Source of the DNA: Membranipora membranacea
Lineage: Eukaryota > Bryozoa > Gymnolaemata > Cheilostomatida > Membraniporidae
Direction: 5' to 3'
DNA length: 64,000 nucleotides
Assembly: GCA_914767715.1 (NCBI GenBank)
Contig: OU612066.1
Span: forward strand, 3,105,001 to 3,169,000
This document shows positions 1 to 61,864 of this stretch, piece by piece (the first letter of the stretch is position 1; the number at the start of each line of letters is the position of its first letter). The position numbers and the translations under genes are program-made. The notes under the pieces were generated by a model, which searched no databases, had not been told where the DNA came from, and was given only the letters and a program-made list of their open reading frames with translations.

Positions 1-1096
1 TATCCGAGCAGACATCTGGGGAACATGATGTTGCACACGCCCCATCTTGTCCAGAACGGATCGACATTTGTGCAGTTCCTCAGTGCAGATTCGATCCTGT
101 CCGAAAAGTCGGTGTATTCAGCAGTGCCATTCAGTCCGAATAGGCTGTTTGGATAGGTAGTGTAAGGTACAACATCGGAACATTCAGCTGGCACCTGGTC
201 GCTGCACTTTTCAGAGCTGAAAAATAACAATACAATGTTATAGTGGCAACATGACTTCATAACAATACACAAATGGCTAACAATCATAAAGTAGACGTTG
301 CGCGCTTGAGAATGCAAAACTGAACGTAAATATCTGCGTCAGCATTGTTGGCACAAATGTGTGCCATTGAACAAAAGAGAGCTCAACTCTGAGGCCATTC
401 GCGGAGAGCCAAAGAGGTTTGAGCCATGGCTGCCACGACAATATGGCCTATGCACCCACCATTCAAGCTCGTCAGCTCCGTTGTGACAGTCGAAGCCGTT
501 GTCGCACACATTCAAGCCTGGTATGCACTGTCCGTTTCCGCAGTCAAACTCTATGTCAGAGCACCGGGTTTCGTTCGTTTCTGGTGCTGTCAGGCATTGC
601 TCCTCAGGCAGCTGCATGCAAATGGACTCGAGGTAGTCTCTGGCCGGGCCTCTGCAACCTTCTCTTATGCCTTCTGCAACAACAATTGAAAAACAGATGT
701 TAATGGTTGAAAAGAGTTTAACGGGTCTATATTCAAGGCAGGCAAGAATTAAGACTTTTCATCTCAACAACAGCTACCCGGTATGGCGTCAGCATGAACA
801 TGGTGCGGCTTGAATTTATCTCCTCGGTAAAACATGCAAGTTTCTCACCGAAGCACGTTTCCTGGCACAGTTGCAACTCGAAGCCAAGCAGACATCTTGG
901 GAACATGATGTTGCACACTCCCCATCTGGTCCAGTATTCATCCAGTCCTGTGCAGTTCATGAGAGCTGCCGTTATGTTATCGGAGAACTGTGTGTATTGC
1001 TCAGTGCCGTTAAGCATGAACAACTTGTTGGGATATGTTGTGTAAGGGACGACGTCAGCACACTCCGCTGGTACTTCATCGCTGCACACCTCCTCA
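1..1096 (-). CDS. Array unit 18 (partial): cut by the window edge in Fz-B
   Basis: Exons: Fz-A 849-1096, LDLa-B 460-673, and Fz-B 1-216, which lacks its last 32 coding bases because the window ends. The frame is still open here and nothing suggests the array stops, so the gene continues to the left. Confidence 0.92.
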
Positions 1097-4000
1097 CTGA
1101 AACGAGAAGACGGTGATAAATGGCAAACATATGAAAAACCTCAACGGCTGCGCACTAAACCGCATGAAATTCGACATGGTTGGCGCTTAGAAAAGATTAC
1201 AGGCGCGCATCAGGAATAAGTTCCAGAATTTGGGAGTTGTCCCGAGAGGTTCCATGCGTTCCATGACATTAACATCTGGAGTTACGTACCATTGAAGCTC
1301 ATCTGCACCGTTGCGGCAGTCGAATTTGTTGTCGCACAGCTGTAAGCCATGGATGCATACACCATCTCCGCAGTCAAACTCGTCTTCAGTGCACTTGCTG
1401 TCGTTCATAGGCAGAGCGGGCAGACAATCCTTCTCTGGCAGCTGCATGCATATCGATTCTAGGTAGTCTCTTGACGAGCCTCTGCAACCTTCACGCACGC
1501 CGTCTGCAAGTGGAGGTAAATTGACAGTTTAGTGTACGTTTGCGCAGCACATGCTCATCAACAATAGGTCATTGACAGTGCGAAAATAGCATCACTATTG
1601 GACCAATTTAAATGCCTATAAACGGCAATGCCATTATCAATAAGTGCCGATCGATCTGTGCTTTTTGACGTATGTCCCGATCCGTGAGAGGAAAACTCAC
1701 CCAAACAAGTTTCCCTGCAAAGCTGCAGCTCATATCCGAGCAGACATCTGGGGAACATGATGTTGCACACGCCCCATCTTGTCCAGAACGGATCGACATT
1801 TGTGCAGTTCCTCAGTGCAGATTCGATCCTGTCCGAAAAGTCGGTGTATTCAGCAGTGCCATTCAGTCCGAATAGGCTGTTTGGATAGGTAGTGTAAGGT
1901 ACAACATCGGAACATTCAGCTGGCACCTGGTCGCTGCACTTTTCAGAGCTGAAAAATAACAATACAATGTTATAGTGGCAACATGACTTCATAACAATAC
2001 ACAAATGGCTAACAATCATAAAGTAGACGTTGCGCGCTTGAGAATGCAAAACTGAACGTAAATATCTGCGTCAGCATTGTTGGCACAAATGTGTGCCATT
2101 GAACAAAAGAGAGCTCAACTCTGAGGCCATTCGCGGAGAGCCAAAGAGGTTTGAGCCATGGCTGCCACGACAATATGGCCTATGCACCCACCATTCAAGC
2201 TCGTCAGCTCCGTTGTGACAGTCGAAGCCGTTGTCGCACACATTCAAGCCTGGTATGCACTGTCCGTTTCCGCAGTCAAACTCTATGTCAGAGCACCGGG
2301 TTTCGTTCGTTTCTGGTGCTGTCAGGCATTGCTCCTCAGGCAGCTGCATGCAAATGGACTCGAGGTAGTCTCTGGCCGGGCCTCTGCAACCTTCTCTTAT
2401 GCCTTCTGCAACAACAATTGAAAAACAGATGTTAATGGTTGAAAAGAGTTTAACGGGTCTATATTCAAGGCAGGCAAGAATTAAGACTTTTCATCTCAAC
2501 AACAGCTACCCGGTATGGCGTCAGCATGAACATGGTGCGGCTTGAATTTATCTCCTCGGTAAAACATGCAAGTTTCTCACCGAAGCACGATTCCTGGCAC
2601 AGTTGAAACTCGAAGCCAAGCAGACATCTTGGGAACATGATGTTGCACACTCCCCATCTGGTCCAGTATTCATCCAGTCCTGTGCAGTTCATGAGAGCTG
2701 CCGTTATGTTATCGGAGAACTGTGTGTATTGCTCAGTGCCGTTAAGCATGAACAACTTGTTGGGATATGTTGTGTAAGGGACGACGTCAGCACACTCCGC
2801 TGGTACTTCATCGCTGCACACCTCCTCACTGAAACGAGAAGACGGTGATAAATGGCAAACATATGAAAAACCTCAACGGCTGCGCACTAAAACGCATGAA
2901 ATTCGACATGGTTGGCGCTTAGAAAAGATTACAGGCGCGCATCAGGAATAAGTTCCAGAATTTGGGAGTTGTCCCGAGAGGTTCCATGCGTTCCATGACA
3001 TTAACATCTGGAGTTACGTACCATTGAAGCTCATCTGCACCGTTGCGGCAGTCGAATTTGTTGTCGCACAGCTGTAAGCCATGGATGCATACACCATCTC
3101 CGCAGTCAAACTCGTCTTCAGTGCACTTGCTGTCGTTCATAGGCAGAGCGGGCAGACAATCCTTCTCTGGCAGCTGCATGCATATCGATTCTAGGTAGTC
3201 TCTTGACGAGCCTCTGCAACCTTCACGCACGCCGTCTGCAAGTGGAGGTAAATTGACAGTTTAGTGTACGTTTGCGCAGCACATGCTCATCAACAATAGG
3301 TCATTGACAGTGCGAAAATAGCATCACTATTGGACCAATTTAAATGCCTATAAACGGCAATGCCATTATCAATAAGTGCCGATCGATCTGTGCTTTTTGA
3401 CGTATGTCCCGATCCGTGAGAGGAAAACTCACCCAAACAAGTTTCCCTGCAAAGCTGCAGCTCATATCCGAGCAGACATCTGGGGAACATGATGTTGCAC
3501 ACGCCCCATCTTGTCCAGAACGGATCGACATTTGTGCAGTTCCTCAGTGCAGATTCGATCCTGTCCGAAAAGTCGGTGTATTCAGCAGTGCCATTCAGTC
3601 CGAATAGGCTGTTTGGATAGGTAGTGTAAGGTACAACATCGGAACATTCAGCTGGCACCTGGTCGCTGCACTTTTCAGAGCTGAAAAATAACAATACAAT
3701 GTTATAGTGGCAACATGACTTCATAACAATACACAAATGGCTAACAATCATAAAGTAGACGTTGCGCGCTTGAGAATGCAAAACTGAACGTAAATATCTG
3801 CGTCAGCATTGTTGGCACAAATGTGTGCCATTGAACAAAAGAGAGCTCAACTCTGAGGCCATTCGCGGAGAGCCAAAGAGGTTTGAGCCATGGCTGCCGC
3901 GACAATATGGCCTATGCACCCACCATTCAAGCTCGTCAGCTCCGTTGTGACAGTCGAAGCCGTTGTCGCACACATTCAAGCCTGGTATGCACTGTCCGTT

Positions 4001-28000: not shown

Positions 28001-31000
28001 AAGTAGACGTTGCGCGCTTGAGAATGCAAAACTGAACGTAAATATCTGCGTCAGCATTGTTGGCACAAATGTGTGCCATTGAACAAAAGAGAGCTCAACT
28101 CTGAGGCCATTCGCGGAGAGCCAAAGTGGTTTGAGCCATGGCTGCCGCGACAATATGGCCTATGCACCCACCATTCAAGCTCGTCAGCTCCGTTGTGACA
28201 GTCGAAGCCGTTGTCGCACACATTCAAGCCTGGTATGCACTGTCCGTTTCCGCAGTCAAACTCTATGTCAGAGCACCGGGTTTCGTTCGTTTCTGGTGCT
28301 GTCAGGCATTGCTCCTCAGGCAGCTGCATGCAAATGGACTCGAGGTAGTCTCTGGCCGGGCCTCTGCAACCTTCTCTTATGCCTTCTGCAACAACGATTG
28401 AAAAACAGATGTTAATGGTCGAAAAGAGTTTAACGGGTCTATATTCAAGGCAGGCAAGAATTAAGACTTTTCATCTCAACAACAGCTACCCGGTATGGCG
28501 TCAGCATGAACATGGTGCGGCTTGAATTTATCTCCTCGGTAAAACATGCAAGTTTCTCACCGAAGCACGTTTCCTGGCACAGTTGCAACTCGAAGCCAAG
28601 CAGACATCTTGGGAACATGATGTTGCACACTCCCCATCTGGTCCAGTATTCATCCAGTCCTGTGCAGTTCATGAGAGCTGCCGTTATGTTATCGGAGAAC
28701 TGTGTGTATTGCTCAGTGCCGTTAAGCATGAACAACTTGTTGGGATATGTTGTGTAAGGGACGACGTCAGCACACTCCGCTGGTACTTCATCGCTGCACA
28801 CCTCCTCACTGAAACGAGAAGACGGTGATAAATGGCAAACATATGAAAAACCTCAACGGCTGCGCACTAAAACGCATGAAATTCGACATGGTTGGCGCTT
28901 AGAAAAGATTACAGGCGCGCATCAGGAATAAGTTCCAGAATTTGGGAGTTGTCCCGAGAGGTTCCATGCGTTCCATGACATTAACATCTGGAGTTACGTA
29001 CCATTGAAGCTCATCTGCACCGTTGCGGCAGTCGAATTTGTTGTCGCACAGCTGTAAGCCATGGATGCATACACCATCTCCGCAGTCAAACTCGTCTTCA
29101 GTGCACTTGCTGTCGTTCATAGGCAGAGCGGGCAGACAATCCTTCTCTGGCAGCTGCATGCATATCGATTCTAGGTAGTCTCTTGACGAGCCTCTGCAAC
29201 CTTCACGCACGCCGTCTGCAAGTGGAGGTAAATTGACAGTTTAGTGTACGTTTGCGCAGCACATGCTCATCAACAATAGGTCATTGACAGTGCGAAAATA
29301 GCATCACTATTGGACCAATTTAAATGCCTATAAACGGCAATGCCATTATCAATAAGTGCCGATCGATCTGTGCTTTTTGACGTATGTCCCGATCCGTGAG
29401 AGGAAAACTCACCCAAACAAGTTTCCCTGCAAAGCTGCAGCTCATATCCGAGCAGACATCTGGGGAACATGATGTTGCACACGCCCCATCTTGTCCAGAA
29501 CGGATCGACATTTGTGCAGTTCCTCAGTGCAGATTCGATCCTGTCCGAAAAGTCGGTGTATTCAGCAGTGCCATTCAGTCCGAATAGGCTGTTTGGATAG
29601 GTAGTGTAAGGTACAACATCGGAACATTCAGCTGGCACCTGGTCGCTGCACTTTTCAGAGCTGAAAAATAACAATACAATGTTATAGTGGCAACATGACT
29701 TCATAACAATACACAAATGGCTAACAATCATAAAGTAGACGTTGCGCGCTTGAGAATGCAAAACTGAACGTAAATATCTGCGTCAGCATTGTTGGCACAA
29801 ATGTGTGCCATTGAACAAAAGAGAGCTCAACTCTGAGGCCATTCGCGGAGAGCCAAAGTGGTTTGAGCCATGGCTGCCGCGACAATATGGCCTATGCACC
29901 CACCATTCAAGCTCGTCAGCTCCGTTGTGACAGTCGAAGCCGTTGTCGCACACATTCAAGCCTGGTATGCACTGTCCGTTTCCGCAGTCAAACTCTATGT
30001 CAGAGCACCGGGTTTCGTTCGTTTCTGGTGCTGTCAGGCATTGCTCCTCAGGCAGCTGCATGCAAATGGACTCGAGGTAGTCTCTGGCCGGGCCTCTGCA
30101 ACCTTCTCTTATGCCTTCTGCAACAACGATTGAAAAACAGATGTTAATGGTCGAAAAGAGTTTAACGGGTCTATATTCAAGGCAGGCAAGAATTAAGACT
30201 TTTCATCTCAACAACAGCTACCCGGTATGGCGTCAGCATGAACATGGTGCGGCTTGAATTTATCTCCTCGGTAAAACATGCAAGTTTCTCACCGAAGCAC
30301 GTTTCCTGGCACAGTTGCAACTCGAAGCCAAGCAGACATCTTGGGAACATGATGTTGCACACTCCCCATCTGGTCCAGTATTCATCCAGTCCTGTGCAGT
30401 TCATGAGAGCTGCCGTTATGTTATCGGAGAACTGTGTGTATTGCTCAGTGCCGTTAAGCATGAACAACTTGTTGGGATATGTTGTGTAAGGGACGACGTC
30501 AGCACACTCCGCTGGTACTTCATCGCTGCACACCTCCTCACTGAAACGAGAAGACGGTGATAAATGGCAAACATATGAAAAACCTCAACGGCTGCGCACT
30601 AAAACGCATGAAATTCGACATGGTTGGCGCTTAGAAAAGATTACAGGCGCGCATCAGGAATAAGTTCCAGAATTTGGGAGTTGTCCCGAGAGGTTCCATG
30701 CGTTCCATGACATTAACATCTGGAGTTACGTACCATTGAAGCTCATCTGCACCGTTGCGGCAGTCGAATTTGTTGTCGCACAGCTGTAAGCCATGGATGC
30801 ATACACCATCTCCGCAGTCAAACTCGTCTTCTTTACAGGGGTGTTTGTAGGGGTTATATTCTAGAGGGAGACAGTTTTCAGTAGGGAGCTGCAGGCAGAT
30901 TGACTGGAGGAGCTCTCTTTCTGTTTCAATCATACAAATGTCTCTCACCCCAGCTGAAACATTTGACATTGATTGACTCAAACTGACATTATGTTATCAG

Positions 31001-34000
31001 CCAATTTAAACCAGGCTAATCCAAATTTTAAATTACTTTGCATTGTTCTTTTTGTAGTTAAGATAGTCAAATCAAATATACTGCTGTTTCTTTTCATACT
31101 TACTAGTCATATCATATCACAAGTCTAAAACCAAAAGTCTAAAATTGAGAACCTACCCAAAAAGAAAGCAGGGACAACATCAGATGAAAGGTGTACAATG
31201 ACTTGCACAGGCCAAATTGCGTCATGAGGAAGGAGGATGCAAGGCAGTGGTACAGGTGTACTTTAGTAGAGCCTTGGTCAGCCTGCCACGTAGCCTTGCC
31301 ACATAGATTAATGGGAACAAACCCAAATGCAGGCAAATTGGATCGAACTTATACCGTGGTTCTGATGTCCCTGATATCCCCGTTTTTACTCCCATTAAAA
31401 GGCATTACGTAACCCTTCTTGTCATCTGAATTCTTGATCATTGAACTACAATATGATTCCCTGAGAAATTATAAACTTCCCAATTAAGTTCTCAATAATG
31501 GTGCAGTGATTTATCTCATTCTGGTTCTATCCACACAATCAGAACTAATCTGTTAATCACTAGAGGGTCAGGCCAATAATAACATACATGGTATTGTCCT
31601 GATGTCATTGGTTCTTCTAAAAATGTATTGTGGGTTACCTCATCTATTAACATGCCCTCGTCTCTCTTCGTTACAAATGTAGATCATGTCAACATCATTA
31701 CGACTGTTTACTCACCGAGACAGCTGTCCTGACAGAGGTGTAGTTCATATCCCAGCAGACATCTCGGGTACACAAGGTTACATACAGACCAGCGAGCTGT
31801 ACAGTTATCTACCTCACACTTACTCAGAGCTGTTCTCATCTCCATCATGAAGTTAGTGTACTGGTCGGTGGTGTTCAAGCTGAACAGTGAGTTTGACATG
31901 GTAGTGTATGGGATGTGATCACTGCATTCTACAGGTACTCCACTGCTACACGTCTCCGAGCTGTGAGAGGGAAATTGATTCAAGCTTAATAATATCATTG
32001 AGCCCTTATTTGGTTATTGAAGGAAAATTTGTACATCAACTTGGATTATATAACTGCACATGTACTATACAAAAGTGGACTGGAATTATACAATGTGGTT
32101 TTATGAGCTCAAGCTGCGACTCGTTTCCTTTGCACACTGCAATTTTCAATATTGTATAACCTCATTTTCACTCTTATGAATTCTTGCTCTATGATATTTT
32201 TCTGCATCAGTCTCAACGCTTATAGATTATACATCTCAGGATACCACATGCATAAAAATGTACAGCCTGGTACATGTCACCTGCACAGGTTGTCATTGAC
32301 TATTGAAAACACTAGAGTTATTGCAACTTGACACATTCAGTTTCTCCCTATAATACAAAGCCTTGTATACCATGTCAGTTCATCAGCTCCATTCAGGCAG
32401 TCAAATCTCCTATCACAGATCGAGAGAGAAGGGATACACTGTCCGTTCCCACAGCTGAACTCATTCTGTCCACAAGAGAATCTATCAACTGTAGCCAGGA
32501 TCTCCTGTACTATATCTACATACATCTCCACATCGATAACCTCTGTAAGATATAACATCCATCAAGTTGCTTTGTGCTCCGCTTTGACATCTAGTTATTT
32601 TTTTAATCAGATTTTGTTTGAAAATTCAAAGTTAATCTGTATGGAGTATGTTGCACATCTTGTCAGGTTCAGGCTCACAGTTTCAACAATAAGACCAAAT
32701 CAGTAAGTACTACAGGGTATAAAAAACAAGTTTCACCAGAATTTCTTATTTTACCACAGTCATCATGATTCACACACCTGTTATTGTAGGTTCTGAGGTT
32801 ATATTCCAGGGGGCGAGCTCATTGTAGATTACAGATGTCATGTTCATTGTGTACTCTATAAGTTGCTGACTACTTATCTCAGTATAAGTTGTATCCAGTA
32901 CTATAACTATCTGCATAGAGACCTCGTTACTCACGGTCACACTGCAGTGGAGAGATACACAGAGATGTGTCAGGGCCAAAAAATAAATAACTATTTGTAT
33001 CTTCATAGTCGGGCGGAAAACCTGATATTGTGCTTATGATACAAATGAGTTACAAGGATCAACCACTTAGGCACAACGAACAACTTACAGTAGATATCTA
33101 GGTTCTTCATTGAGTGAAGTTATCTCACTGATATGTGCATATATTGCATAGTTTAAGTGGAGACGTCTGCATACACATGTAAGGGTTCAGCGCAAGGAAA
33201 ATCATAAATAACTTGGCTGAATTCAATTCACAACCACATAATTTCACGATTTCATAAAAGCCAATGTGAATTGTCGTTGATGATAATCCTATATATATAT
33301 ATATATTAACAGTGTATATACTTTCTGACTCAAGACGAGTCTTACATATGAAGTCTACTGAGCACAGTTGCTACTGGCCTGTCTGTACAAGCTTGTACAG
33401 ACAGGCTGTGTTGTTATATCGTATTAACTTACCTTGCGTTCATGAGACGACAGCCTATAAACACCTCATCCCTGTCGATCTCTGTGTATATTAATTTGAC
33501 CACATCACAGATACCATCAGAAGCTTCCATAAACACCTCACTAGAGTGATTCAACATCTCAACAGAAAAGACCATACGGCTAGTCATCTCCATCATCAAC
33601 ACAACTATAACAACAAAGTCATTGATCAACAGTCAGTATGTCACACACAACTACAATCTCAACGTCAGCCACTACATAAAAAGATATCCCATTCTTTGGA
33701 AAGCTAAGTGGTAAGCTACTTTTCAGGTTGACATAAAACAGTTTAGAGTTTGTCCATTCAACATCATTGAAACAAACAAACTAACCAGCTCACAGCTGTT
33801 TACAACGGCTAGCTAGTTTGATTTCATCCTGTTTGAGAGTATATGAATTAAATATTATGATTATATCGATCCCTGAGTAACATTACACGCAGTATTTCAT
33901 CACTTACCAAGGGTCTCAGGGAGCACTGTGGTGTTGTCTATCATCATTGTAGTAGTTGGGTCAACAGTAGTACCAGGAGGCTCAGAAGTAAACACTGTAG

Positions 34001-37000
34001 TAGTTGTTGGTAAAGTAGTGGATGTTGACGATACAGTTGGGGTCATAGTAGAAGTCAACACTGTGGGTGTGACGCTAGAGGTTGACACAGTTGGTGTGAC
34101 AGTTGATGTTGACTCTGTTGGTGTGACAGTTGATGTTGACTCTGTTGGTGTGACAGGTGATGTTGACACTGTCGGTGTGACACTAGATGTTGACACTGTC
34201 GGTGTGGCACTAGATGTTGACACTGTCGGTGTGACACTAGATGTTGACACTGTTGGTGTGACACTAGAAGTCGACACAGTTGGTGTGACACTTGATGTTG
34301 ACAAAGTTGGTGTGACACTTGATGATGGACCAGTTGTGGTGGAGTTTGGTGATAATGTTGTTGATACTGCCAATGTTGATTCAGATGTTGGAGATGTAGT
34401 TGAGCTCGTTGATGAAGGAGCAGAGGTGGTAGTTGTTGAGGGTGATGGAGTAGTAGTTGGGATGGTTGTTGGAGCTATTGTGAAATCAACTTCATTGAGA
34501 ACATCATCGACTGTCTCGACTGGGACAACTATAACACACCAAACGATAATACTGTTAATATGGTTACTGAGACCTGACATGGTCCAAACATAAATCCGTA
34601 AAAGACTTGAGGACAGCATGAACTCATGGATAAGAGTAGCACGCTTATAAGCTGTCTATCAAGGCAACTACTGCACATTATACTTTGATTGAAGGAGAAG
34701 CCAACATCTTTTATTAGGTTAAAATAATGAACAATCATAGTGTCAGTACTCAGCACATAGTGTCAGTACTCAGCACATAGTGTCAGTACTCAGCACATAG
34801 TGTCAGTACTCAGCACATAGTGTCAGTACTCAGCACATAGTGTCAGTACTCAGCACATAGTGTCAGTACTCAGCACATAGTGTCAGTACTCAGCACATAG
34901 TGTCAGTACTCAGCACATAGTGTCAGTACTCAGCACATAGTGTCAGTACTCAGCACATAGTGTCAGTACTCAGCACATAGTGTCAGTACTCAGCACATAG
35001 TGTCAGTACTCAGCACATAGTGTCAGTACTCAGCACATAGTGTCAGTACTCAGCAGTATTTTGTCAAAAGTCAACAGTAGTGATGGTCAATGTAGGGCCT
35101 TAGGATATTCCTGAGGTCAGGATTGGGCTATATAAGCAGGCGTTGGAAGTTCAGAACTATATCAGCAGTGACATGACTTCAAGTTCTTACCAGTAACAAT
35201 GATAGTAGCCTCGATGACACTTTCTACCTCAGTAACAAGGCCAGTCATTAGAGAGTTAAGTACAAGCGAACTGTAGAAATCAGCAGTGGAAGATTCGGGA
35301 CTGGATGTCGTTGTGTTAGTCGTTGTCGATGTGGTTGTGTTTGTATTTGCTGGTGTTGTGGTTGTAGCTGTGTCAGTGATCACAACAAACACAAATATTG
35401 TCAGGAAGTTAGCCTTGATAGAGCCAGACCTGGAAAATAGAATATCTCATGAGCGCTTGCATTATGTACAGGGTAGCAATGCATGGTTAAGGTATCTGCT
35501 GTAATTCAACCTGCCAGCCTCGGAAAGACATGGACACGGAATAGTATATTTAGTACTCTTCTACATCCAAACTTGAACTTTGAAACTCTGATTGACTTAC
35601 TCGAAGCTAGTGACGACACAGCCCTTATATGCAGATGATAGAGTAGAGTTTTGATATATAGAATCGATAGAGCTACAGAAGTTATCTGCCTCTGCCTGGA
35701 ACTCAGTAGATGAGGAATTCATCAGCTCCTCACTGAATGTCTTGTTCAGTGTAACTGTCGAGTTGTAGGCAGCTGACGGATAGAAAATCAAGTGAACGGA
35801 TCCATAAAATATTTCTTTACAATAGAAAACCAGTAAACAATCAACAGTATCACATAAACCGTTAGCAGTTTCAGTACAAGGTAGTGATTGATCATGAGTT
35901 CTGACCTCCAAGAATCTTATGTCCGCTTTGAACAAATCAATTGTAGCTCATTGAAGCACAAATAATATTTGAATGCTAGCAAAACCTACTGTTCCCTCTT
36001 CATCATTGTTGTGGTATGATTGCAAACAAGGATGATGTAATAACCAACTCACCCACAACTGTAGGAGTCTCTGTTGTTGTGGTCACTGTGGTTGTCGGAG
36101 TTGTAGTCACTGTGGTTGTCGGAGTTGTAGTCACTGTTGTTGATGGAGTTGTAGTCACTGTGGTTGTTGGAGTTGTAGTCACTGTTGTTGTTGATGTAGG
36201 GCCTGTTGTGGTAGGTCCAGTTGTGGTAGGCACTGTTGTGGTAGGGCCTGGTGTTGTCGAGGTTTGAGTAGTAGGATCTTGAGTAGAAGGGTCCAGTGTG
36301 GTGGGGCCAGGAGTGGTAACAACAGTTGTAGGACCCTGTGTTGTCGGGGCCTGTGTTGTCGGGGCCTGTGTTGTCGGGGCCTGTGTTGTAGGACCCTGTG
36401 TTGTCGGGGCCTGTGTTGTCGGGGCCTGTGTTGTAGGACCCTGGGTTGTTGGAGCCGGTGTTGTTGGAGCCGGTGTTGTTGGAGCCGTGGTTGCAGGAGC
36501 TTGTGTGACAGGCTGCTGTGTTATAGGAGCCCGTGTGGTCTCTTGGGTTGGAGGTACAGTTCTCTTTGTCGGAGGTACTGTGACTGAGGCGCCTAAAAGT
36601 TGGACAATTAAAAATGCAATGATTTGTTTGCTACGATGTCTATATATATGAAAAGTATCTAGTATACTAAGAGAATTAAAGCTTCAGGATCTTAATAACA
36701 AAGTACCAGTAACATTGAATTCCATATCTGGAATAGCATCATTAGCTTTCTTTTGCAAAATAACGGGCTTGCAGAAATAGCCAGTCCCTAGTAGCAATCT
36801 AGAAATGCCCAAATCATCGACACTGTAGGGGTATAATTACTGTTTGCAATTTTGTAAACAAGACAATTCTCAGGCTAATTATTCATGCTACTAGGGACAG
36901 CCAATCAGATAACAGTCAGATGGGTCTCTGTGTTTAGTGTACTAACTGTATAACGCTATGATACTATTTCCATTCTATGAGAAGAGTTTAATTCAGTGAC

Positions 37001-40000
37001 CAGTAACTAATATACACTGCTATGTGTGACAAGTAGCACTAACCATCAAATGTTATTGATGAAGTGTCCACATTGTAACCTCCAAACTCATTTCTACCGA
37101 TTACAGTAAGGATCTCAGTCTGCGCCAAAATTGTAATCTCTGATTGTGGTTTATCTCCTCCGGATCGCTGAAAATCCAGCGTATAGGTGACCACCACACT
37201 ACCGGACCTGTCAAACGAAGAACATATTATCGTTATAAACCATTCACTTCCTTCTAATATCACAACACGCAAATGACAATGATTCACCTCACAAAGTAGT
37301 AAAAACATGTAACATGCAACAAGAGCAAGATAGTTTACTTTGGAGTGACAATGCTCGTACTCTATGTTTTGCTCAGCTTCTGATGTATCACTCTTTGGTG
37401 AGCCGCGTGATATCCTTTCCGCTGCTAGCAATATAGATTGAGTACATAGACAAGCCTTAATCAAATTTCATCATTACACAACATATTCCATCTGTCCACC
37501 TATACAAACATTTTTCGCATGGCACAGTAGACCGTTGAAGAGGGCAATATGTGTTCAATTCCCATTTTTCTTGAGTTTCATGGTGGAACATTTTATGATT
37601 ATCAAAAGTTTGCTATCAAAAGAGATAATTTTTTGGTCAGTATTCTGGCTTGTCTTAAATAAGAATGCATTTACTCGCCTGATTCTATCGACAGTACATT
37701 GAGTATAGAGAGAAGACAAATCCGGGTTCCCACTGTATACATCGCTCACCTAAATAATAGAATGTGAACCAATCTTAGTGCATGATGGGTGAGTAGTTAT
37801 CCTTCCCAATACAAGGGCAAACTAGTTGAGGAGAATAATGCCATATGCATGCAAAGAGAGTCTGTACATGTGGTCAAGCCTAAATAAAACATGACTCAGC
37901 AATCTATTGCGAATGTACAGACAAGTTATGTTAGAGCGAGGAGCTCATTCTTACTGTTCTTCTCAAGAAAGCTGCGATGGTATAAAAAATATGATTTGAA
38001 TCTCCCAGTACGAAGCGGATCTATTCACAGAGATCCAATTTCTGTGATGCCTATGCTGTCGTTAAACTTTCTTTCAAAAAACATGAATGAATGTTCTACC
38101 AAATATCCAAATATTTGTTCTTGAACATTGAGTCCGTTTCAGAGCATAGCAGGATAGCTGATCTCTTCTTATTTGATTAGGAGTTTTATATAAGAGTGGG
38201 TTTAATTTGGTGAGAGCAGCGATACTTACTGATTTACAGAAGTCCTGAGTAAATGTTTTATATTCTTCTGAGTTAGGATCCGAGTACTGAGCTAAGAACT
38301 GTATCCCTCTCAATCTCATAGTACCGTTCATCGTAAAAACTACAAGTGGCATCAAATATATCATAGGATTATCATAGCCGCACCCTGCCTCACAAAGGGC
38401 ACGAGGAACCTCAGGCTAAGTATTACTTGCATTAAAAAGATCATGTTTTTGTCTGAGAGCTGCATTTGAAAACAGGCTGCCTATCAGCGACATGTTAGCT
38501 TTCCGATGTTTAGCGCTTAGTGACCTGTCACTTTGCAATAGAAATCTACATCCTTGAAGCACTTATACATATTCTCAAACATTCAAAGTCTAGCTGGCAA
38601 TAATAGAGCTTTATATTATTTTGTCCAAATGTTCTTTTGTGGTTTAACAATATAAATATGCACAGATTTCCTTGAGCAACCCCTTATGTGCCGGCACTAT
38701 CATGTATAATTCACTGTATATATATGACATGTAAACAGGTCTTCAGATACATACCTGAAGTATCGAGTCTACTTCGCGAACCAGCTACAAAATAGAAAAA
38801 TAAGTTCACCATACGTCATATCAGGGAGCAAAAACTGAGAGATAACATGATGAGAAAATTAAGTTCCTTGTTAGAAATCTTTAAGCAGCACACCCTCTCA
38901 AAGGGGCACAGTTTGTTTACTTGCTATGCTGATGGTGTTTGTATAAGGGATATTATTCATGCAAATCAGCAATCACCAGTTTTCTGTTACCTCCCATACA
39001 ATAAATATCATAAGTAAGCACCCTATTTACATTATGTTAAACCTGAGGCCTATCCAAGTAATAAACCACCTCAATATGACAAGCGAGTAAGGGGCAGAAT
39101 GGAACGCCATCGGGTCATCACGAGACACTATTTAAACATGGCTTTGCCCTCAGCATGAGGGTTTATATCTTGTGATGTAATTTGACTAAGCCGGGTGACA
39201 CTGAAACTCAATACAAGCTAGCAGTAATGGTGTTGGGAATGCACTTTTACAGTATTGGGAGTGTTCAGGTTATGAAACTGTGCTGGTCAGGACTATATTA
39301 TATAATTATTCTGAGCCAGGCATGGACAAGGAAGAATACAAATTACAAAGAAAACCTGTTCTCTGATCACAGGATATTTCCATAGATATAGTATACTTGT
39401 ATATACTTGAAAACTAAGTCTCTGGATAATTCAATCAGGCACTCATTTTTAACCATATTCTTGTTACTACAAGCGCATAGCAATCTCGAATAGTGGGGAA
39501 ATACGTAGACAGGCCATCTTATACGGGACAGCGTCAGTAAGCATGGAGGATGTTAACATACCTAGAATAGCGGTGGTTGTGATGGCAGCTATGAGAAGTG
39601 TTATCGCCACGATTACAGAAGCCCAAACACAGTAAGCATTCTGTTGCCTCTTCTTATTAAAGTTATCCCATGCTCTACCATACCATAGCTTATCGCCACT
39701 GCAACAACACAAAAGCGACAAGTCAACGCTGCATACTATGGTAGAAGCAGGCAAACTGAAATGTATTAACTCTATCAACAACAGTATAATCTTTCGTTGG
39801 AAGCAGCAAGAATTATGAATAGACAGTTTTCTGAGCTCTGATTTAGGCCTCAATTCGGAGTTGTCCACTCTCCAGTTTGGTACTTTTAACCCACGCCGCA
39901 TAGGAAAAACGTGCTGAAAAGAGGGTTATCTTGAAAACCGCTTATTATAGGATAAAAATTATTTTTGATTCAGAATCTGCAACATCGAAAACTCATATGG

Positions 40001-42114
40001 ACAAAGTTTGGGAAATAATTTTAGTAATTGGATAGTCAATTATAGCATTTTCTGCCTGTTTTGCGGACAATTTGGCAGAAATTTTCATGAGTTTCATCAC
40101 TAAAATTAAGATCTATCAACATTCAAGTCTCCAATGATTTAGAAACCCTGTCTCACAGGGTTTTTCAATGGTGCAGACTCTGAATCAAAAATAATTTTTA
40201 TCCTATCATATGCGGTTTTCAGGATAACCCTCTTTCAGCAGGTTTTTCCAACGCGGTGTGGGTCAAAAGTACCAAACTGGAGAGAGGACAACTCCGAATT
40301 GAGGCATAAATAAGAGCTCAGAAAACTGTCTATTAGTTGAACAAGGTGAATATATTCTTCACACAGTCGACATCTTTGACTCTCTCACTCATGTGGTATT
40401 AGTCTTGCACCGACAGAAGCACACACTTCCTGTTTGGTGAGCAGCCTTGAAAGTCCTGTCTACTCTCCACAGCCCACAGCTTCACTTACTTTGAATATTG
40501 ATATTTGGTAGGCTGAGATTCGACTATGTAAGCACCGTCGGCCCTCTTATTTGAGAAGTTGGGGTAGCTGACAGGCATCGAGCTGACGACTGGTCTGCTG
40601 CCATAGACAACATCCTGTGGAGTTGTGTAATTTCTCACACCTTCAGTCGCATACTTATGATATCTTTTATCATTACGACGATTTGTGTCCCCTGTTGAGG
40701 ATGTGGAGGACGACTCCTGGGTAAAATTACATCAAACAGTTTTAGGAAGGAAAGTTTACAAGAATGGTTACTAGTTCATATTTGTGTTCTGAGTATATTT
40801 TTGATAACAGAAAATATAGTGTGTATTTTGTCTTCCCTTGGTTTTCTCACTAATTGGGAAATGCAACACTTGACAAGACAAGTAGATAGTTTTCATAAAA
40901 TAGTGGCGCACCAAAACCAGGGTGAGTGATAGAGTGGAACTAATTTACCAACGAAGGAATTGGTTCCTGGAACCAATTATCGCCTTCACACACGCTGACC
41001 CTAGCCGTGTATTTGATCCATATGAATGTTCATCATTTGATTCATTACAGTCATAATTATCACAGTTATTATATTCGAAATAGTTACACAGCTCATGGAA
41101 CTGCAGCGAGGTGATAGGGGAACAGAATCAGTTTTTTCAACAACAACAACTTGCAACATGACACCCTACTTACACGCTGTCTATCTGTGTCACATGGCCT
41201 AGATATTGACTTACATTCTAATAAACATGTGATACATAACTCTGGGTATTGGGTCTGAATTGAGGAATTCATTATTGCGTATAGATCATAATGAGCTTGT
41301 GATAGAAAGCATGGGATCTGAATGAGCTACAAAATGTGTGTGAAACTGAGTTTGTTTTCACATAGGACAAAAGACCTTTAGAAATACTGAATACTAGTAT
41401 TGCTCACATTGTAATCTTATTAGCAAAATAAGGACAGAGAATTTTTAATTGAGTTCTGGATTGTAATTATATCGGATGTCCTGACTGGCACCCCCATAAA
41501 TAATAGAGAGAGTAATCTTTGATAATAAGTTTGAAAGTAAATCTGTACTTCTGCATCCCTGCTTGTATGTTTAAACCCATCCATTAAAATATCCTTCGGG
41601 TTAGTATGTTGTTTGCAGCCTAACTCTTACTGACAGCAGCTAAACAACATTAAATGTTGACTAGTGATACAGGGCTCAGCTATGCCATGCAGGCTTCCTC
41701 TTTCTCTTTCTGCTAACACAGACAACCAGTGTTCTGTGATAAGGTTAATGCAGGCTAATTTGCATGCAGCCAAACAATATTTGTTGCCATTTGTCTGTTG
41801 GTGTTAGTATCACCAAGGTGTAACAACAGTTACTCCTTGGCAGCACAAGAAATGCAAGCTACACAACGTATTCAAGCTGCAGGGCGTAGCATTCTGAGGC
41901 AGTCAAGTTTCAAATTGCAGTGAAACAGCCACTTGGCACAATGCAAAGAAATAGGACGTTATTTGTCCTAGCTGTGGATGTGCCTACACCGTTTCCTATG
42001 CTCTGTATATACCCTCAGATCTACATAATAATGTAAACTTACCTGTAATTCCCCATACCAGGGATCACGAGAAGCCTGAAATATGGCCGGCTTCTTCTTA
42101 TGTTTGGGAGGCAT
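1..42114 (-). CDS. Giant type II membrane protein: SEA/mucin stalk plus Frizzled-CRD/LDLa array (partial, 3' end off window)
   Basis: This is a spliced gene assembled from about 87 exons whose splice phases agree at every junction; it runs right to left and leaves the window inside a Frizzled exon. Domain order is cytoplasmic tail (~115 residues), signal-anchor helix, SEA1, Thr/Pro mucin, SEA2, Ser/Thr mucin, SEA3, LDLa, Fz, then 36 further Fz and 36 LDLa exons. Coding length inside the window is about 19.7 kb (~6,580 residues). The N-terminus lacks a signal peptide, and KKRQQ sits just before the helix, so the tail is cytoplasmic and the rest is extracellular. Fz CRDs bind lipids or Wnt-type ligands, and LDLa domains bind calcium and protein ligands. 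Corin and other type II serine proteases share the membrane topology and domain types, but no protease domain is seen. A mucin-like adhesive or receptor role is inference. The exact first exon and total length are uncertain. Confidence 0.87.
1097..2828 (-). CDS. Array unit 17: two Fz-LDLa modules, FEF and Thr to Ser variants
   Basis: Exons: Fz-A 2581-2828, LDLa-B 2192-2405, Fz-B 1701-1948, LDLa-A 1290-1503. Fz-A has FEF (base 2602) and a private CQESC for CQETC (about 2590) between the sixth and seventh Fz cysteines. Confidence 0.93.
2829..4560 (-). CDS. Array unit 16: two Fz-LDLa modules
   Basis: Exons: Fz-A 4313-4560, LDLa-B 3924-4137, Fz-B 3433-3680, LDLa-A 3022-3235. Common marker class. 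Confidence 0.93.
4561..6292 (-). CDS. Array unit 15: two Fz-LDLa modules, LDLa-A Asp to Tyr
   Basis: Exons: Fz-A 6045-6292, LDLa-B 5656-5869, Fz-B 5165-5412, LDLa-A 4754-4967. The private base at about 4839 turns EFDCGDG into EFYCGDG next to the second LDLa cysteine. This residue is not one of the usual calcium ligands, so the fold should survive. It also shares the silent LDLa-B change of unit 11. Confidence 0.93.
6293..8024 (-). CDS. Array unit 14: two Fz-LDLa modules
   Basis: Exons: Fz-A 7777-8024, LDLa-B 7388-7601, Fz-B 6897-7144, LDLa-A 6486-6699. Marker class gccacgac / caacaattg / gcgtcagc; it corresponds to unit 18. Confidence 0.93.
8025..9756 (-). CDS. Array unit 13: two Fz-LDLa modules, FEF variant
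   Basis: Exons: Fz-A 9509-9756, LDLa-B 9120-9333, Fz-B 8629-8876, LDLa-A 8218-8431. It carries the FEF variant (base 9530) and, in its last intron, cactaaacc (8081). It corresponds to unit 17. Confidence 0.93.
9757..11488 (-). CDS. Array unit 12: two Fz-LDLa modules
   Basis: Exons: Fz-A 11241-11488, LDLa-B 10852-11065, Fz-B 10361-10608, LDLa-A 9950-10163. Common marker class; it corresponds to unit 16 in the higher-order repeat. Confidence 0.93.
11489..13220 (-). CDS. Array unit 11: two Fz-LDLa modules
   Basis: Exons: Fz-A 12973-13220, LDLa-B 12584-12797, Fz-B 12093-12340, LDLa-A 11682-11895. A silent AAC-to-AAT change in the LDLa-B GNGQ codon (near 12657) is shared only with unit 15, four units away. 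Confidence 0.93.
13221..14952 (-). CDS. Array unit 10: two Fz-LDLa modules, FEF variant
   Basis: Exons: Fz-A 14705-14952, LDLa-B 14316-14529, Fz-B 13825-14072, LDLa-A 13414-13627. Fz-A reads GFEFQLC rather than GFELQLC (base 14726), shared with units 13 and 17. Confidence 0.93.
14953..16684 (-). CDS. Array unit 9: two Fz-LDLa modules
   Basis: Exons: Fz-A 16437-16684, LDLa-B 16048-16261, Fz-B 15557-15804, LDLa-A 15146-15359. It mixes marker classes: caacaattg with gccgcgac and gcgttagc, plus the aaagtgg variant (16002) otherwise found only in units 1-3. This is a sign of exchange between distant units. Confidence 0.93.
16685..18416 (-). CDS. Array unit 8: two Fz-LDLa modules, Fz-B Glu to Gln
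   Basis: Exons: Fz-A 18169-18416, LDLa-B 17780-17993, Fz-B 17289-17536, LDLa-A 16878-17091. The private base at about 17412 (ttggatcc for ttcgatcc) changes SDRIES to SDRIQS in Fz-B; it is conservative and away from the cysteines. Confidence 0.93.
18417..20148 (-). CDS. Array unit 7: two Fz-LDLa modules
   Basis: Exons: Fz-A 19901-20148, LDLa-B 19512-19725, Fz-B 19021-19268, LDLa-A 18610-18823. There is one private intron base at about 19007 (ccgtggga instead of ccgtgaga), a few bases beyond the Fz-B donor GTGAGT; coding is unaffected. Confidence 0.93.
20149..21880 (-). CDS. Array unit 6: two Fz-LDLa modules
   Basis: Exons: Fz-A 21633-21880, LDLa-B 21244-21457, Fz-B 20753-21000, LDLa-A 20342-20555. 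Common class, with no difference from unit 5 noticed by eye. Confidence 0.93.
21881..23612 (-). CDS. Array unit 5: two Fz-LDLa modules
   Basis: Exons: Fz-A 23365-23612, LDLa-B 22976-23189, Fz-B 22485-22732, LDLa-A 22074-22287. It belongs to the common class (gccgcgac, caacgattg, gcgttagc); no private change was noticed. Confidence 0.93.
23613..25344 (-). CDS. Array unit 4: two Fz-LDLa modules
   Basis: Exons: Fz-A 25097-25344, LDLa-B 24708-24921, Fz-B 24217-24464, LDLa-A 23806-24019. The intron beside LDLa-B carries gccacgac, otherwise typical of units 10, 13, 14, 17 and 18, combined with caacgattg of the other class. It is therefore a recombinant of two haplotype classes. Confidence 0.93.
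25345..27076 (-). CDS. Array unit 3: two Fz-LDLa modules
   Basis: Exons: Fz-A 26829-27076, LDLa-B 26440-26653, Fz-B 25949-26196, LDLa-A 25538-25751. It has the aaagtgg intron variant (26394) of units 1 and 2 but not ggtcg. The cactaaacc intron variant (25401) is the same one that occurs at 8081 and 1153, exactly 10 and 14 units away. Confidence 0.93.
27077..28808 (-). CDS. Array unit 2: two Fz-LDLa modules
   Basis: Exons: Fz-A 28561-28808, LDLa-B 28172-28385, Fz-B 27681-27928, LDLa-A 27270-27483. The protein is identical to unit 1. It shares with unit 1 the intron changes at 28126 (aaagtgg) and 28420 (ggtcg), which points to duplication of this pair after the rest of the array diverged. Confidence 0.93.
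28809..30540 (-). CDS. Array unit 1 (first in transcript): two Fz-LDLa modules
   Basis: Exons in transcript order are Fz-A 30293-30540, LDLa-B 29904-30117, Fz-B 29413-29660 and LDLa-A 29002-29215. The Fz-A exon starts after tttcag in phase 2 and ends G|GTGAGA in phase 1; the LDLa-B exon starts after ttgcag and ends TG|GTGGGT. The Fz CRD runs over two exons: seven cysteines in the Fz exon, three more (REGC, SIC, EQC) at the start of the LDLa exon, ten in all, with the motif VPYTTYPN after Cys2. LDLa follows with EFDCGNGQCI, CDNGFDC and NGADE (calcium-site acidic residues), and its sixth Cys is completed by the next exon. Sites NGT, NIT and NCT are potential N-glycosylation sites. Intron variants aaagtgg (29858) and ggtcg (30152) are shared with unit 2. 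Confidence 0.93.
30734..30953 (-). CDS. Hybrid LDLa exon at the array boundary
   Basis: This 220-bp exon (acceptor tttcag at 30954, donor TG|GTACGT) encodes the last three cysteines of the preceding divergent Fz domain (DIC, SIC, ENC) and an LDLa domain. Its downstream part, from EDEFDCGDG onward, is identical to array LDLa-A, while the upstream part is diverged and two codons longer. The switch at 30831 is the right-hand edge of the 1732-bp array and lies within codons conserved in every LDLa copy. It therefore looks like an unequal-exchange or conversion breakpoint. Confidence 0.92.
30954..31715. other. Intron, unique sequence
   Basis: This 762-bp intron lies between the divergent Fz exon and the hybrid LDLa exon. 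It shows no coding signal on either strand and no recognisable repeat. It is much longer than the 175-243 bp introns of the array. Confidence 0.7.
31716..31960 (-). CDS. Divergent first Frizzled-CRD exon
   Basis: The 245-bp exon has acceptor ctcacag and donor G|GTGAGT, with phase 2 to 1 like all Fz exons. It keeps the family pattern: Cys pair with VPVEC, IPYTT, NSLFSLNTT, CTARWSVCN, YPRCLLGYELHLC and DSC. It differs from the array copies at many positions and replaces PN by SN after YTT. With the first part of the hybrid exon it supplies ten Fz cysteines; an extra Cys (KCEVDNC) lies in the middle. This appears to be the founder-like, non-homogenised module next to the array. Confidence 0.9.
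32371..32542 (-). CDS. First LDLa exon (no Fz before it)
   Basis: The 172-bp exon has acceptor cttacag and donor TG|GTATAC, phase 1 in and 2 out. It encodes a 25-residue linker and then an LDLa domain with SCGQNEFSCGNGQC, ICDRRFDC and NGADE. As in all LDLa exons here, the sixth cysteine is completed across the splice (TG + C). It follows SEA3 directly and starts the LDLa-Fz alternation. Confidence 0.9.
32778..32941 (-). CDS. SEA domain 3, second half
   Basis: The 164-bp exon has acceptor cactgcag and donor AG|GTGTGT, phase 2 to 1. It encodes SVTVSNEVSMQIVIVLD followed by a helix and the NMT, NIT sequons. Its length equals the second-half exon of SEA1 (37044-37207). At the position where SEA1 has SGSVVV there is no Gly-Ser pair, so self-cleavage is unlikely here. 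The reading frame also continues upstream into a signal-peptide-like stretch (see findings). Confidence 0.82.
33377..33406. repeat. Perfect 30-bp palindrome in SEA3 intron
   Basis: Arms GCCTGTCTGTACAAG and their exact reverse complement meet without a spacer, 27 bp past the SEA3 first-half donor. A related hairpin sharing the outer GCCTGTCT is at 60209-60242, so it may be the footprint of a small foldback element. Confidence 0.9.
33433..33604 (-). CDS. SEA domain 3, first half
   Basis: The 172-bp exon has acceptor gttatag and donor AG|GTAAGT, phase 1 to 2; its length is identical to SEA2's first exon. It encodes a beta strand (MVFSVEMLNHSSEVF), a helix, and IGCRLMNA before the splice. A single pair of cysteines (GIC, GCR) is likely disulfide linked, matching the same pattern in SEA2. 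Confidence 0.8.
33908..34528 (-). CDS. Mucin exon 2: Ser/Thr-rich, 9-residue repeats
   Basis: A single 621-bp exon (207 codons, phase 1 to 1, acceptor gttatag, donor G|GTAAGT) sits between SEA2 and SEA3. It contains about eleven imperfect copies of a 9-residue repeat typified by SSVTPTVST, flanked by irregular Thr/Ser/Pro stretches and several NST/NTT sequons. It has no cysteine. The composition predicts dense O-glycosylation and an extended stalk. The exon's symmetric phase means it can expand, contract or be skipped without a frameshift. Confidence 0.9.
34736..35055. repeat. Minisatellite, 20-bp unit, 16 perfect copies
   Basis: The unit TGTCAGTACTCAGCACATAG repeats without a single mismatch over 320 bp, in the intron between SEA2 and the second mucin exon. 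It is not in frame with anything and is probably polymorphic in length. Confidence 0.98.
35191..35429 (-). CDS. SEA domain 2, second half with Thr-rich insertion
   Basis: The 239-bp exon has acceptor ttttccag and donor G|GTAAGA, phase 2 to 1. It opens with SGSIKANFLTIFVFVV, which matches the SEA strand after the cleavage site and keeps the Gly-Ser pair. A Thr/Asn-rich insertion of about 25 residues then precedes the helix DFYSSLVLNSL. The insertion inside the fold is unusual, since the other SEA second halves are 164 bp. Cleavage is possible but the following IKA is not the canonical VVV. Confidence 0.84.
35601..35772 (-). CDS. SEA domain 2, first half
   Basis: The 172-bp exon has acceptor tccgtcag and donor GA|GTAAGT, phase 1 to 2. 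It encodes STVTLNKTFSEELMNSSST, a helix, and KGCVVTSFE, the last codon split by the intron just before SGS. Cys residues FCSS and GCVV pair as in SEA3. Confidence 0.85.
36053..36592 (-). CDS. Mucin exon 1: Thr/Pro/Gln-rich
   Basis: A 540-bp exon (180 codons, phase 1 to 1, acceptor acttttag, donor G|GTGAGT) joins SEA1 to SEA2. It has two repeat styles: 5-residue repeats TTQAP/TTQGP in the first half and TTTVTTTP-type repeats in the second. There is no Cys and no hydrophobic segment. It is read as an O-glycosylated spacer. The Cys- and Val-rich plus-strand frames here are antisense shadows. Confidence 0.9.
36784..36898. mobile_element. Small MITE with 5-bp target duplication
   Basis: A 115-bp element in the intron between SEA1 and mucin exon 1 has 13-bp terminal inverted repeats (GTCCCTAGTAGCA at left, its reverse complement at right) and is flanked on both sides by AGCCA (36779-36783 and 36899-36903). 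It has no coding capacity. The class is not identified. Confidence 0.8.
37044..37207 (-). CDS. SEA domain 1, second half with GSVVV
   Basis: The 164-bp exon has acceptor tttgacag and donor G|GTTAGT, phase 2 to 1. It starts SGSVVVTYTLDF, the textbook SEA autoproteolysis motif (cleavage between Gly and Ser in known SEA mucins). The remaining strand-helix segment ends FGGYNVDTS. Because this SEA lies right after the membrane helix, cleavage would leave the whole giant ectodomain held only by non-covalent contacts, allowing shedding; that consequence is inference. Confidence 0.9.
37677..37679 (-). other. Non-canonical GC splice donor
   Basis: The phase-2 end of the SEA1 middle exon needs the donor CAG|GCGAGT, with GC instead of GT but otherwise matching the donor consensus. 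The nearby GTAAAT would end the exon in phase 0 and break the frame into SGSVVV. GC-AG introns are a known minority class. Confidence 0.75.
37679..37749 (-). CDS. SEA domain 1, middle exon
   Basis: The 71-bp exon has acceptor tatttag, enters in phase 0 and leaves in phase 2. It encodes VSDVYSGNPDLSSLYTQC and VDRI, with the final Arg codon split. It supplies the segment before the cleavage strand; SEA2 and SEA3 have this fused to their first exon, so SEA1 carries one extra intron. Confidence 0.8.
38230..38339 (-). CDS. SEA domain 1, first exon
   Basis: The 110-bp exon has acceptor cttgtag and donor TCA|GTAAGT, phase 1 to 0. It encodes TMNGTMRLRGIQFLAQYSD, the typical opening strand of SEA, and then NSEEYKTFTQDFCKS, the first helix. 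The Cys in DFC pairs with TQC of the next exon. Confidence 0.85.
38755..38784 (-). CDS. Possible 30-bp microexon
   Basis: A 30-bp stretch is bounded by attttgtag and CAG|GTATGT. Inserted between the membrane exon and SEA1 it keeps the frame (phase 1 to 1), adding GSRSRLDTS. It could be constitutive, an alternative cassette, or chance. Confidence 0.4.
39562..39698 (-). CDS. Signal-anchor (transmembrane) exon
   Basis: The 137-bp exon has acceptor gttgttgcag and donor G|GTATGT, phase 2 to 1. It encodes GDKLWYGRAWDNFNKKRQQ, then a hydrophobic span starting at VWASVIVAITLLIAAI and ending near AIL, about 22 residues. The basic cluster on the N-terminal side and absence of an upstream signal peptide give type II orientation (N-terminus inside). 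Confidence 0.88.
39818..40334. mobile_element. Foldback element with ~170-bp inverted arms
   Basis: The two ends, starting AATAGACAGTTTTCTGAGCT at left and its reverse complement at right, continue as inverted copies for roughly 170 bp with scattered mismatches and a ~170-bp centre. The element sits in the intron between the cytoplasmic and membrane exons. No ORF of its own is convincing, so it is probably a non-autonomous foldback/MITE insertion. Confidence 0.88.
40490..40716 (-). CDS. Cytoplasmic tail exon
   Basis: The 227-bp exon has acceptor ttacccag and donor AA|GTAAGT, phase 0 to 2. It encodes about 75 hydrophilic residues starting ESSSTSSTGD, with nine tyrosines in short motifs such as DVVYGSRP, GAYIVESQP and KYQYS. 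These could be phosphorylation or endocytic motifs, which is inference. It has no cysteine and no hydrophobic run, consistent with a cytosolic segment. Confidence 0.82.
40717..42042. other. First intron, no coding signal
   Basis: This 1.3-kb intron lies between the first coding exon and the cytoplasmic-tail exon. Only a short hairpin (41813-41840) stands out. Confidence 0.7.
41813..41840. repeat. Hairpin repeat, family CCAAGGAGTAAC, copy 1
   Basis: Inverted arms CCAAGGTGTAAC and GTTACTCCTTGG (one mismatch) flank a 4-base loop. Related copies are at 42971-42994 and 45719-45743. Confidence 0.75.
42043..42114 (-). CDS. First coding exon (start codon)
   Basis: This ATG at 42112-42114 opens MPPKHKKKPAIFQASRDPW and ends ELQ|GTAAGT in phase 0, which fits the next exon exactly. 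The frame stays open upstream for about 15 codons (including KDKDIEAAISGGG) to a TGA, with no earlier ATG. Either this is the true start, or another exon is spliced in near 42154. It is basic and hydrophilic, as expected for a cytoplasmic N-terminus. Confidence 0.72.
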
Positions 42115-47425: not shown

Positions 47426-47990
47426 GTTACCAGTGGTGTCAGCCAATGGTCAGCTCTCCAGGGAGCTGATACCACAGATGATTCAGCCGGGTTACCACGG
47501 GATTTGAATGCCATGTACGATTGGTCAACACAATGGGGCATGTCTTTTAACAGTAAAAGTGTGTGCATATGCAGATTGGGCTGAAGTCCCCAAAATTAAA
47601 CTTCACTCAAGGAGCGGAACAAATCCCTACATCAGACTGTATGACTTATCTTGGTGTACACATTAAATCCGATATGAAATGGAATAAGCATATATCCAAG
47701 ATTACCGCTAAAACTAACCGCTCCCTAGGAGTGCTACGAAGGAGCCTCAATGGCGCTACAGTCTTAAACCCAAAATAACTGTGTGTAAAACAACTGTAAG
47801 GCCCTTTCTTGAATATGCCTCTCAGGTGTGGTCACTTGACAACATTGGGCTTGTGAATACTATAGAAAACGTACAACAACAAGCTGTGAGATGGCCTTAT
47901 TGTCTTGCAAGGCTTGACAGTGTTGCTGATTGCATGTCCATTAACCCTGTTCTTTCTTCGATGACAGGCGCCGTGAATAAGATATATTGA
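47426..47990 (+). pseudogene. Dead LINE reverse-transcriptase fragment
   Basis: In three frames one can read VTSGVSQWSAL (compare the LINE motif VTSGVPQGSVLGP), DLNAMYDWSTQWGMSFN, YLGVHIKSDMKWNKHI and TTVRPFLEYASQVW, in the order found in Jockey/CR1-type non-LTR reverse transcriptases. The region between the first two motifs is shortened and the catalytic FADD box is missing. Frameshifts occur near 47,553 and 47,778. It is an old 5'-truncated fragment on the plus strand. Confidence 0.82.
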
Positions 47991-61700: not shown

Positions 61701-61864
61701 TAGAGAAGGGATTTTTGTGATTGAGGTAAAAGCTTCATAACTTCTCATCTTGGACAACGATCTGACCTTAACTACACTGTGGTATGCCAAGGCTACCATT
61801 ACGCTCTATGACTTTTGTTGTTTTTCTTGGATTTTCTATTATTATTTTTTTTCTAGCAACACTC

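Follow-up and report, generated by a model that had tools for sequence, protein, structure and literature searches.

Corin is a type II membrane protein whose Fz and LDLa domains lie in separate blocks, in the order Fz, five LDLa, Fz and three LDLa, and which in addition has an SRCR and a protease domain. To our knowledge, the known Frizzled (Fz) domain proteins have a single Fz domain or a few. The membrane protein MFRP is described as a glycosylated, lipid-binding, single-pass type II protein with one Fz, two LDLa and two CUB domains; what has been reported is lipid binding by the entire protein, and a test of the Fz domain alone is not among the results of that report considered here (PMC12036977). 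MUC1 combines mucin tandem repeats with a SEA domain that contains the self-cleavage motif GSVVV (PMC9564314). Large intragenic coding repeats are found in LPA, in which the kringle IV-2 (KIV-2) array is built from 5.6-kb units with two short exons per domain, occurs in 1 to about 40 units and accounts for up to 70% of the protein (PMC11462820). DMBT1 is predicted to carry 7-20 SRCR domains per molecule, and its copy number mutates at a rate in the order of 1-2% per generation (PMC4946147).

The window analysed here is a stretch of 64,000 nucleotides from the bryozoan Membranipora membranacea. A gene predicted on its minus strand, which its introns and domain set suggest to be of animal origin, begins at an ATG at position 42114 and continues through 16 unique exons to an array whose units measure 1732 bp and comprise four exons; the span of 1-42114 on this strand proposed in a first-pass annotation is correct, with the array open at the window edge. 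The spliced model consists of 87 exons (16 unique and 71 from the array) and encodes 6580 residues in 19742 nt without a stop, the reading frame being still open at the left edge of the window (position 1). An in-frame stop lies 20 codons 5' of the ATG with no in-frame ATG in between. Splice junctions are of the GT-AG type throughout with the sole exception of a GC donor after E6, and within the array AG acceptors are present in all 71 exons and GT donors in all 70 complete ones. The domains follow each other in the order tail, one helix, SEA1, mucin, SEA2, mucin, SEA3 and LDLa, after which come Fz-LDLa pairs:

42043..42114, minus strand: E1, 24-residue beginning of the cytoplasmic tail including the start codon (ATG, GT donor)
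40490..40716, minus strand: E2, cytoplasmic tail (AG/GT, open in phase)
39562..39698, minus strand: E3, juxtamembrane basic stretch and predicted transmembrane helix from residue 124 (peak hydropathy of the model)
38755..38784, minus strand: E4, linker of 10 residues (AG/GT, open in phase)
38230..38339, minus strand: E5, first part of SEA1 (Pfam SEA on spliced E5-E7)
37679..37749, minus strand: E6, middle of SEA1 (GC donor)
37044..37207, minus strand: E7, end of SEA1 with the GSVVV motif near the exon start (from sequence)
36053..36592, minus strand: E8, mucin-like Thr/Pro-rich segment 1 (composition; 15-bp and 24-bp repeats)
35601..35772, minus strand: E9, first part of SEA2 (Pfam SEA on spliced E9-E10)
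35191..35429, minus strand: E10, second part of SEA2 with a Thr-rich insert (Pfam SEA on spliced E9-E10)
33908..34528, minus strand: E11, mucin-like segment 2 (composition; 27-bp repeat)
33433..33604, minus strand: E12, first part of SEA3 (Pfam SEA on spliced E12-E13)
32778..32941, minus strand: E13, second part of SEA3 (Pfam SEA on spliced E12-E13)
32371..32542, minus strand: E14, first LDLa (Pfam Ldl_recept_a, best of four stretches in the joined piece)
31716..31960, minus strand: E15, N-terminal part of Fz1, a single-copy module (ten-cysteine spacing together with E16, an eleventh cysteine being extra)
30734..30953, minus strand: E16, C-terminal part of Fz1 and LDLa (equals the array from 30831 down)
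1..30540, minus strand: array with a unit length of 1732 bp; 17 units are full (30540 to 1097) and a further 1096 bp follow
Module X of each unit: exon of 248 bp (Fz-X N-terminal part), intron of 175 bp, exon of 214 bp (Fz-X C-terminal part and LDLa), intron of 243 bp
Module Y of each unit: exon of 248 bp (Fz-Y N-terminal part), intron of 197 bp, exon of 214 bp (Fz-Y C-terminal part and LDLa), intron of 193 bp

The intron between E10 and E11 contains a perfect 20-bp minisatellite of 16 copies (100% match, 34736-35055), and that between E2 and E3 a foldback element which is 78% self-complementary (39818-40334). Ten reading frames from the right flank of the window had no Pfam match (10 of 10), including one at 47718-47990 that by eye resembles a fragment of a retrotransposon reverse transcriptase. 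The flank also holds a repeat of about 690 bp in two copies (52065-52755 and 61861-62555) which are 95% identical and, read by eye, have imperfect terminal inverted repeats, so that the element looks like a MITE-type DNA transposon. Rfam and tRNA scans of the window gave no match.

The 17 full units vary at 12 of 1732 positions, introns included, and differ pairwise by 0-8 bases of 1732 (99.5-100% identity) without any indels, which implies that the amplification or homogenisation is recent. Introns are about as uniform among the units as exons. Five of the 12 variable sites are exonic and four of these five changes alter a residue, which leaves selection on single copies unsupported. Modules X and Y share 71% amino-acid identity over the Fz-LDLa module; dN/dS is 0.16 at a dS of 1.36 over this module and 0.11 at a dS of 1.63 over the Fz part only, and comparison with the Fz1-LDLa module gives 0.23 for X and 0.22 for Y (the latter with the LDLa stretch shared with the array included and the Fz-only dS saturated), all of which are rough figures at such high, nearly saturated dS and yet well below 1. 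The introns of X and Y cannot be aligned apart from a 12-bp match, and together with the low dN/dS this points to long-term selection on the modules as protein. The old divergence of X and Y combined with the uniformity of the units suggests a recent multiplication, within the gene, of an old Fz-LDLa pair. The dozens of Fz-LDLa domains previously remarked upon are thus indeed found in the window, but they stem from a single, very recent expansion of an old block of two modules. The array has the design of a multi-exon coding VNTR, with near-identical intragenic units that contain introns and remain in frame. Its GC content (1-30831) lies above that of the rest of the gene, in the introns too (0.431 against 0.374), a possible cause being gene conversion biased towards GC in the course of homogenisation.

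Units that are 99.5-100% identical and free of indels would also be expected if only a few X-Y blocks were real and the assembler had looped through them or merged alleles. However, exact repeats did not exceed 3943 bp at any of six shifts examined, and a block of four units comes back slightly altered: units 11-13 differ from units 15-17 at 1, 0 and 1 positions, and unit 14 is identical to the truncated unit 18 at all nine variable sites that the latter covers. As a simple loop would yield long exact blocks, the 3943-bp maximum argues against a plain loop, and although the count itself could still be wrong, an assembly artefact is considered unlikely.

Of the 37 Fz domains that start in the spliced model, 36 are complete and the window edge cuts one; the cysteine-acid motif of LDLa occurs 37 times. 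Acidic residues of LDLa domains serve as calcium ligands. In the spliced piece, four stretches pass the gathering cut-off of Pfam LDLa (PF00057; E 4.4e-35), and ten unspliced reading frames taken from the gene and array gave LDLa in three, SEA in two and no match in five. One common ten-cysteine spacing is present in all 36 complete Fz modules and matches that of FZD8 (sequence as entered) at C1-C2 (7) and C6-C7 (3); Fz1 carries an eleventh cysteine beyond this pattern. At the level of Pfam the similarity is limited. Module Y alone matches Fz (PF01392) with an E value of 0.0008 and 20.4 bits, under the gathering cut-off of 32.1, and no match was returned for module X alone, for Fz1 alone, for X or Y together with its LDLa, or for a 502-residue piece holding Fz1, X and Y; none of the three module types reaches the cut-off. 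A profile built from seven known Fz domains, six of whose sequences were entered by hand, scores X at 20.7, Y at 21.2 and Fz1 at 11.1 bits. Shuffles with fixed cysteines reach the score of the module in 0 of 1000 cases for X and Y and in 4 of 1000 for Fz1, and full shuffles in 0 of 1000 for each. When ROR2 and MuSK are removed, the resulting five-Fz profile scores X at 8.7, Y at 9.1, ROR2 at 7.0, MuSK at 5.8 and Fz1 at 1.7 bits, none individually significant, with reversed modules and LDLa pieces as controls below 0. Profiles with one member left out give MuSK 27.9, ROR2 30.6 and corin 107.3 bits, all above X and Y on the full profile. On our reading of these scores, X and Y would be Fz relatives about as distant from classical Fz domains as MuSK and ROR2, without close kin in the profile, and Fz1 would join them through its identity of 52-56% with X and Y over the Fz part. 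PDB sequence searches with module X (best E 0.26) and with a three-module profile (best E 1.1) found no Fz chain, both hits being taken as chance, and a profile-profile comparison covers 47 columns with a probability of 40% and an E value of 0.0003, which is suggestive only. Since the Fz match is weak and below threshold, 'Fz-like' is the safe name. The earlier count of at least 37 Fz domains holds for starts, 36 of which lead to complete domains with the ten-cysteine spacing and one to a cut domain, but the domains are divergent and better called Fz-like. Their description as identical does not hold, as every array copy is of type X or type Y, which are 71% alike, and Fz1 forms another type.

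The strongest hydrophobic segment of the model comprises 19 residues from residue 128 (hydropathy 2.55) and follows a basic stretch, with KKR in its N-flank and two arginines in its C-flank. Three weaker hydrophobic segments (1.41-1.61) are all located in SEA regions, and the stretch between the N-terminus and the helix has no segment exceeding 1.4. Membrane anchoring and a type II topology are predicted from this arrangement; the arginines after the helix weaken the charge argument for type II and, along with the hydrophobic segments in the SEA regions, keep the topology at the level of a prediction. The two mucin-like segments consist of about 49% Ser+Thr and 19% Pro (residues 276-455, with 15-bp and 24-bp DNA repeats) and about 56% Ser+Thr (residues 591-800, with a 27-bp DNA repeat).

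Two of the three SEA domains, SEA1 and SEA2, pass the gathering cut-off of Pfam SEA (PF01390, 26.4 bits). Spliced E5-E7 (SEA1) matches with an E value of 3.2e-12 and 47.0 bits compared to 0.011 for the frame around E5 alone, and spliced E9-E10 (SEA2) with 4.4e-13 and 49.7 bits compared to 1.7e-9 for the frame around E9 alone, which indicates that exon joining rebuilds these domains; spliced E12-E13 (SEA3) reaches 1.2e-4 and 22.6 bits, under the cut-off. Pfam thus confirms SEA domains in the stalk as described in the first-pass annotation, which nevertheless overlooked the self-cleavage motif GSVVV of SEA1. As GSIK in SEA2 and ASVT in SEA3 occupy the same place, SEA1 is the best candidate for cleavage, and if it does self-cleave, the ectodomain may be held non-covalently. 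The first exons of SEA2 and SEA3 both measure 172 nt (35601-35772, 33433-33604), the last exons of SEA1 and SEA3 both measure 164 nt (37044-37207, 32778-32941), and a phase-2 intron lies just 5' of the cleavage position in all three SEA domains, which are therefore probably related by duplication.

Corin and other type II transmembrane proteases have building blocks and topology in common with this protein, which might accordingly be a corin-like serine protease with an expanded exosite region and a trypsin domain past the window edge. The window ends within the array, and neither a protease nor an SRCR domain was reported in the pieces scanned. Corin is furthermore not known to have mucin segments or three SEA domains, and a corin-like protease is regarded as improbable, to the same degree as an assembly artefact.

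It is highly probable that one giant type II gene encodes both the SEA-mucin stalk and the Fz-LDLa array. In addition to the rise of the SEA1 and SEA2 scores on exon joining, this reading is based on LDLa domains whose last cysteine codon is completed across a splice: the codon of the sixth cysteine is split after TG, with C or T to follow, at the E14/E15 and E16/array junctions and inside the array, and the first base of E15 completes the sixth cysteine of the E14 LDLa. Phase was among the criteria by which the borders of E1-E16 were set manually, so that phase agreement alone is not independent proof. The single-gene, type II SEA-mucin-Fz-LDLa reading of the first-pass annotation hence fits the checks that were run and is supported in part, but the phase match is not independent and the topology is a prediction. 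The shift in GC content at the array (about 48% against 38-40%) would suit two adjacent genes, one for a SEA-mucin membrane protein and another for a separate Fz-LDLa repeat protein. This arrangement is very unlikely, however, given that E14-E16 already hold LDLa-Fz-LDLa in single copy, that the split cysteine codons continue from E14 through E16 into the array, and that the array edge (30831/30832, the mismatches against the first unit ending at 30832) falls within an exon, E16. A gene split at the array edge is rejected on account of this position. An untranscribed, coding-derived satellite, which would account for introns as uniform as exons and for the four nonsynonymous changes among five exonic variants, is the least probable reading since every array exon in the window (71 of 71) has an open frame and intact splice sites.

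The best overall explanation, held with moderate confidence, is a type II SEA-mucin protein with a recently amplified Fz-like/LDLa rod that would act as a sheddable trap. One gene would give rise to a type II protein composed of a basic tail, a single helix, a stalk in which two mucin segments separate three SEA domains, an LDLa and the Fz-like/LDLa rod, in which the old X and Y block appears to have been multiplied recently to at least 17 full copies and a part. The units are nearly identical in sequence, and unequal crossing-over or gene conversion may be the process that keeps them so. It is proposed that self-cleavage of SEA1 between the G and the S of GSVVV would leave the mucin stalk and rod held only non-covalently, that calcium-bound LDLa domains would function as spacers between the Fz-like domains, and that each Fz-like domain would make a weak lipid or glycoconjugate contact. 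Copy number would then set avidity and length, and the whole protein could serve as a sheddable, high-avidity, multivalent surface trap. A role as a trap, as opposed to adhesion or lipid/Wnt sequestration, is a tentative suggestion from the domain content. More doubtful, and rather unlikely, is a hypervariable self-shedding Fz-LDLa rod whose length would differ between individuals and provide size-coded recognition or capture, perhaps for microbe capture or self/non-self adhesion, the Fz domain having turned from a Wnt-binding head into a repeat module. If the overall explanation is true, dozens of Fz domains alternating with LDLa on a SEA-mucin stalk would represent the use of Fz as an avidity module and, beyond LPA and DMBT1, a further example of protein size tuned by intragenic tandem duplication. 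Copy-number polymorphism, SEA shedding and ligand binding by Fz become directly testable.

Like corin, the protein is predicted to be type II and contains Fz and LDLa domains, but where corin has two Fz and eight LDLa in blocks, Fz and LDLa strictly alternate in the array and are carried on a SEA-mucin stalk. By domain order, it is not a corin. MFRP likewise spans the membrane once in type II orientation and combines LDLa with Fz, but has one Fz, two LDLa and two CUB domains, and mucin and SEA are absent from the description cited (PMC12036977). Mucin repeats and a SEA domain with GSVVV are shared with MUC1 (PMC9564314). MUC1 is of type I, whereas here the helix lies near the N-terminus, ahead of SEA and mucin, and the stalk is oriented as in a type II protein and carries Fz-LDLa; by topology the protein is not a MUC1-type mucin. 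As a gene design, and for the one sequence at hand, the locus resembles LPA kringle IV-2 in being an intragenic array of near-identical multi-exon units with two short exons per domain, with the difference that the LPA unit of 5.6 kb encodes one kringle domain and the present unit of 1.7 kb two Fz-LDLa modules (PMC11462820). Tandem ligand-binding domains, variable in number in DMBT1, are a feature in common with DMBT1/SALSA (PMC4946147), the domains of which are SRCR and which is secreted (PMC5435793), the descriptions cited making no mention of a SEA stalk. Relatives sought by pattern scans gave 7 and 80 matches in viral_contigs and 4 and 35 in genome_contigs, none of which was confirmed. Searches of open-access PubMed Central for Fz with LDLa, SEA, mucin or repeats found no protein of such design, MFRP being nearest, and those for tandem or multiple Fz domains found no paper. 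The protein design had been called undescribed, which agrees with these searches; the existence of comparable intragenic coding VNTRs had been overlooked. The gene design is known from LPA and DMBT1 and the domain set from corin and MFRP, whereas the combination did not turn up in these searches.
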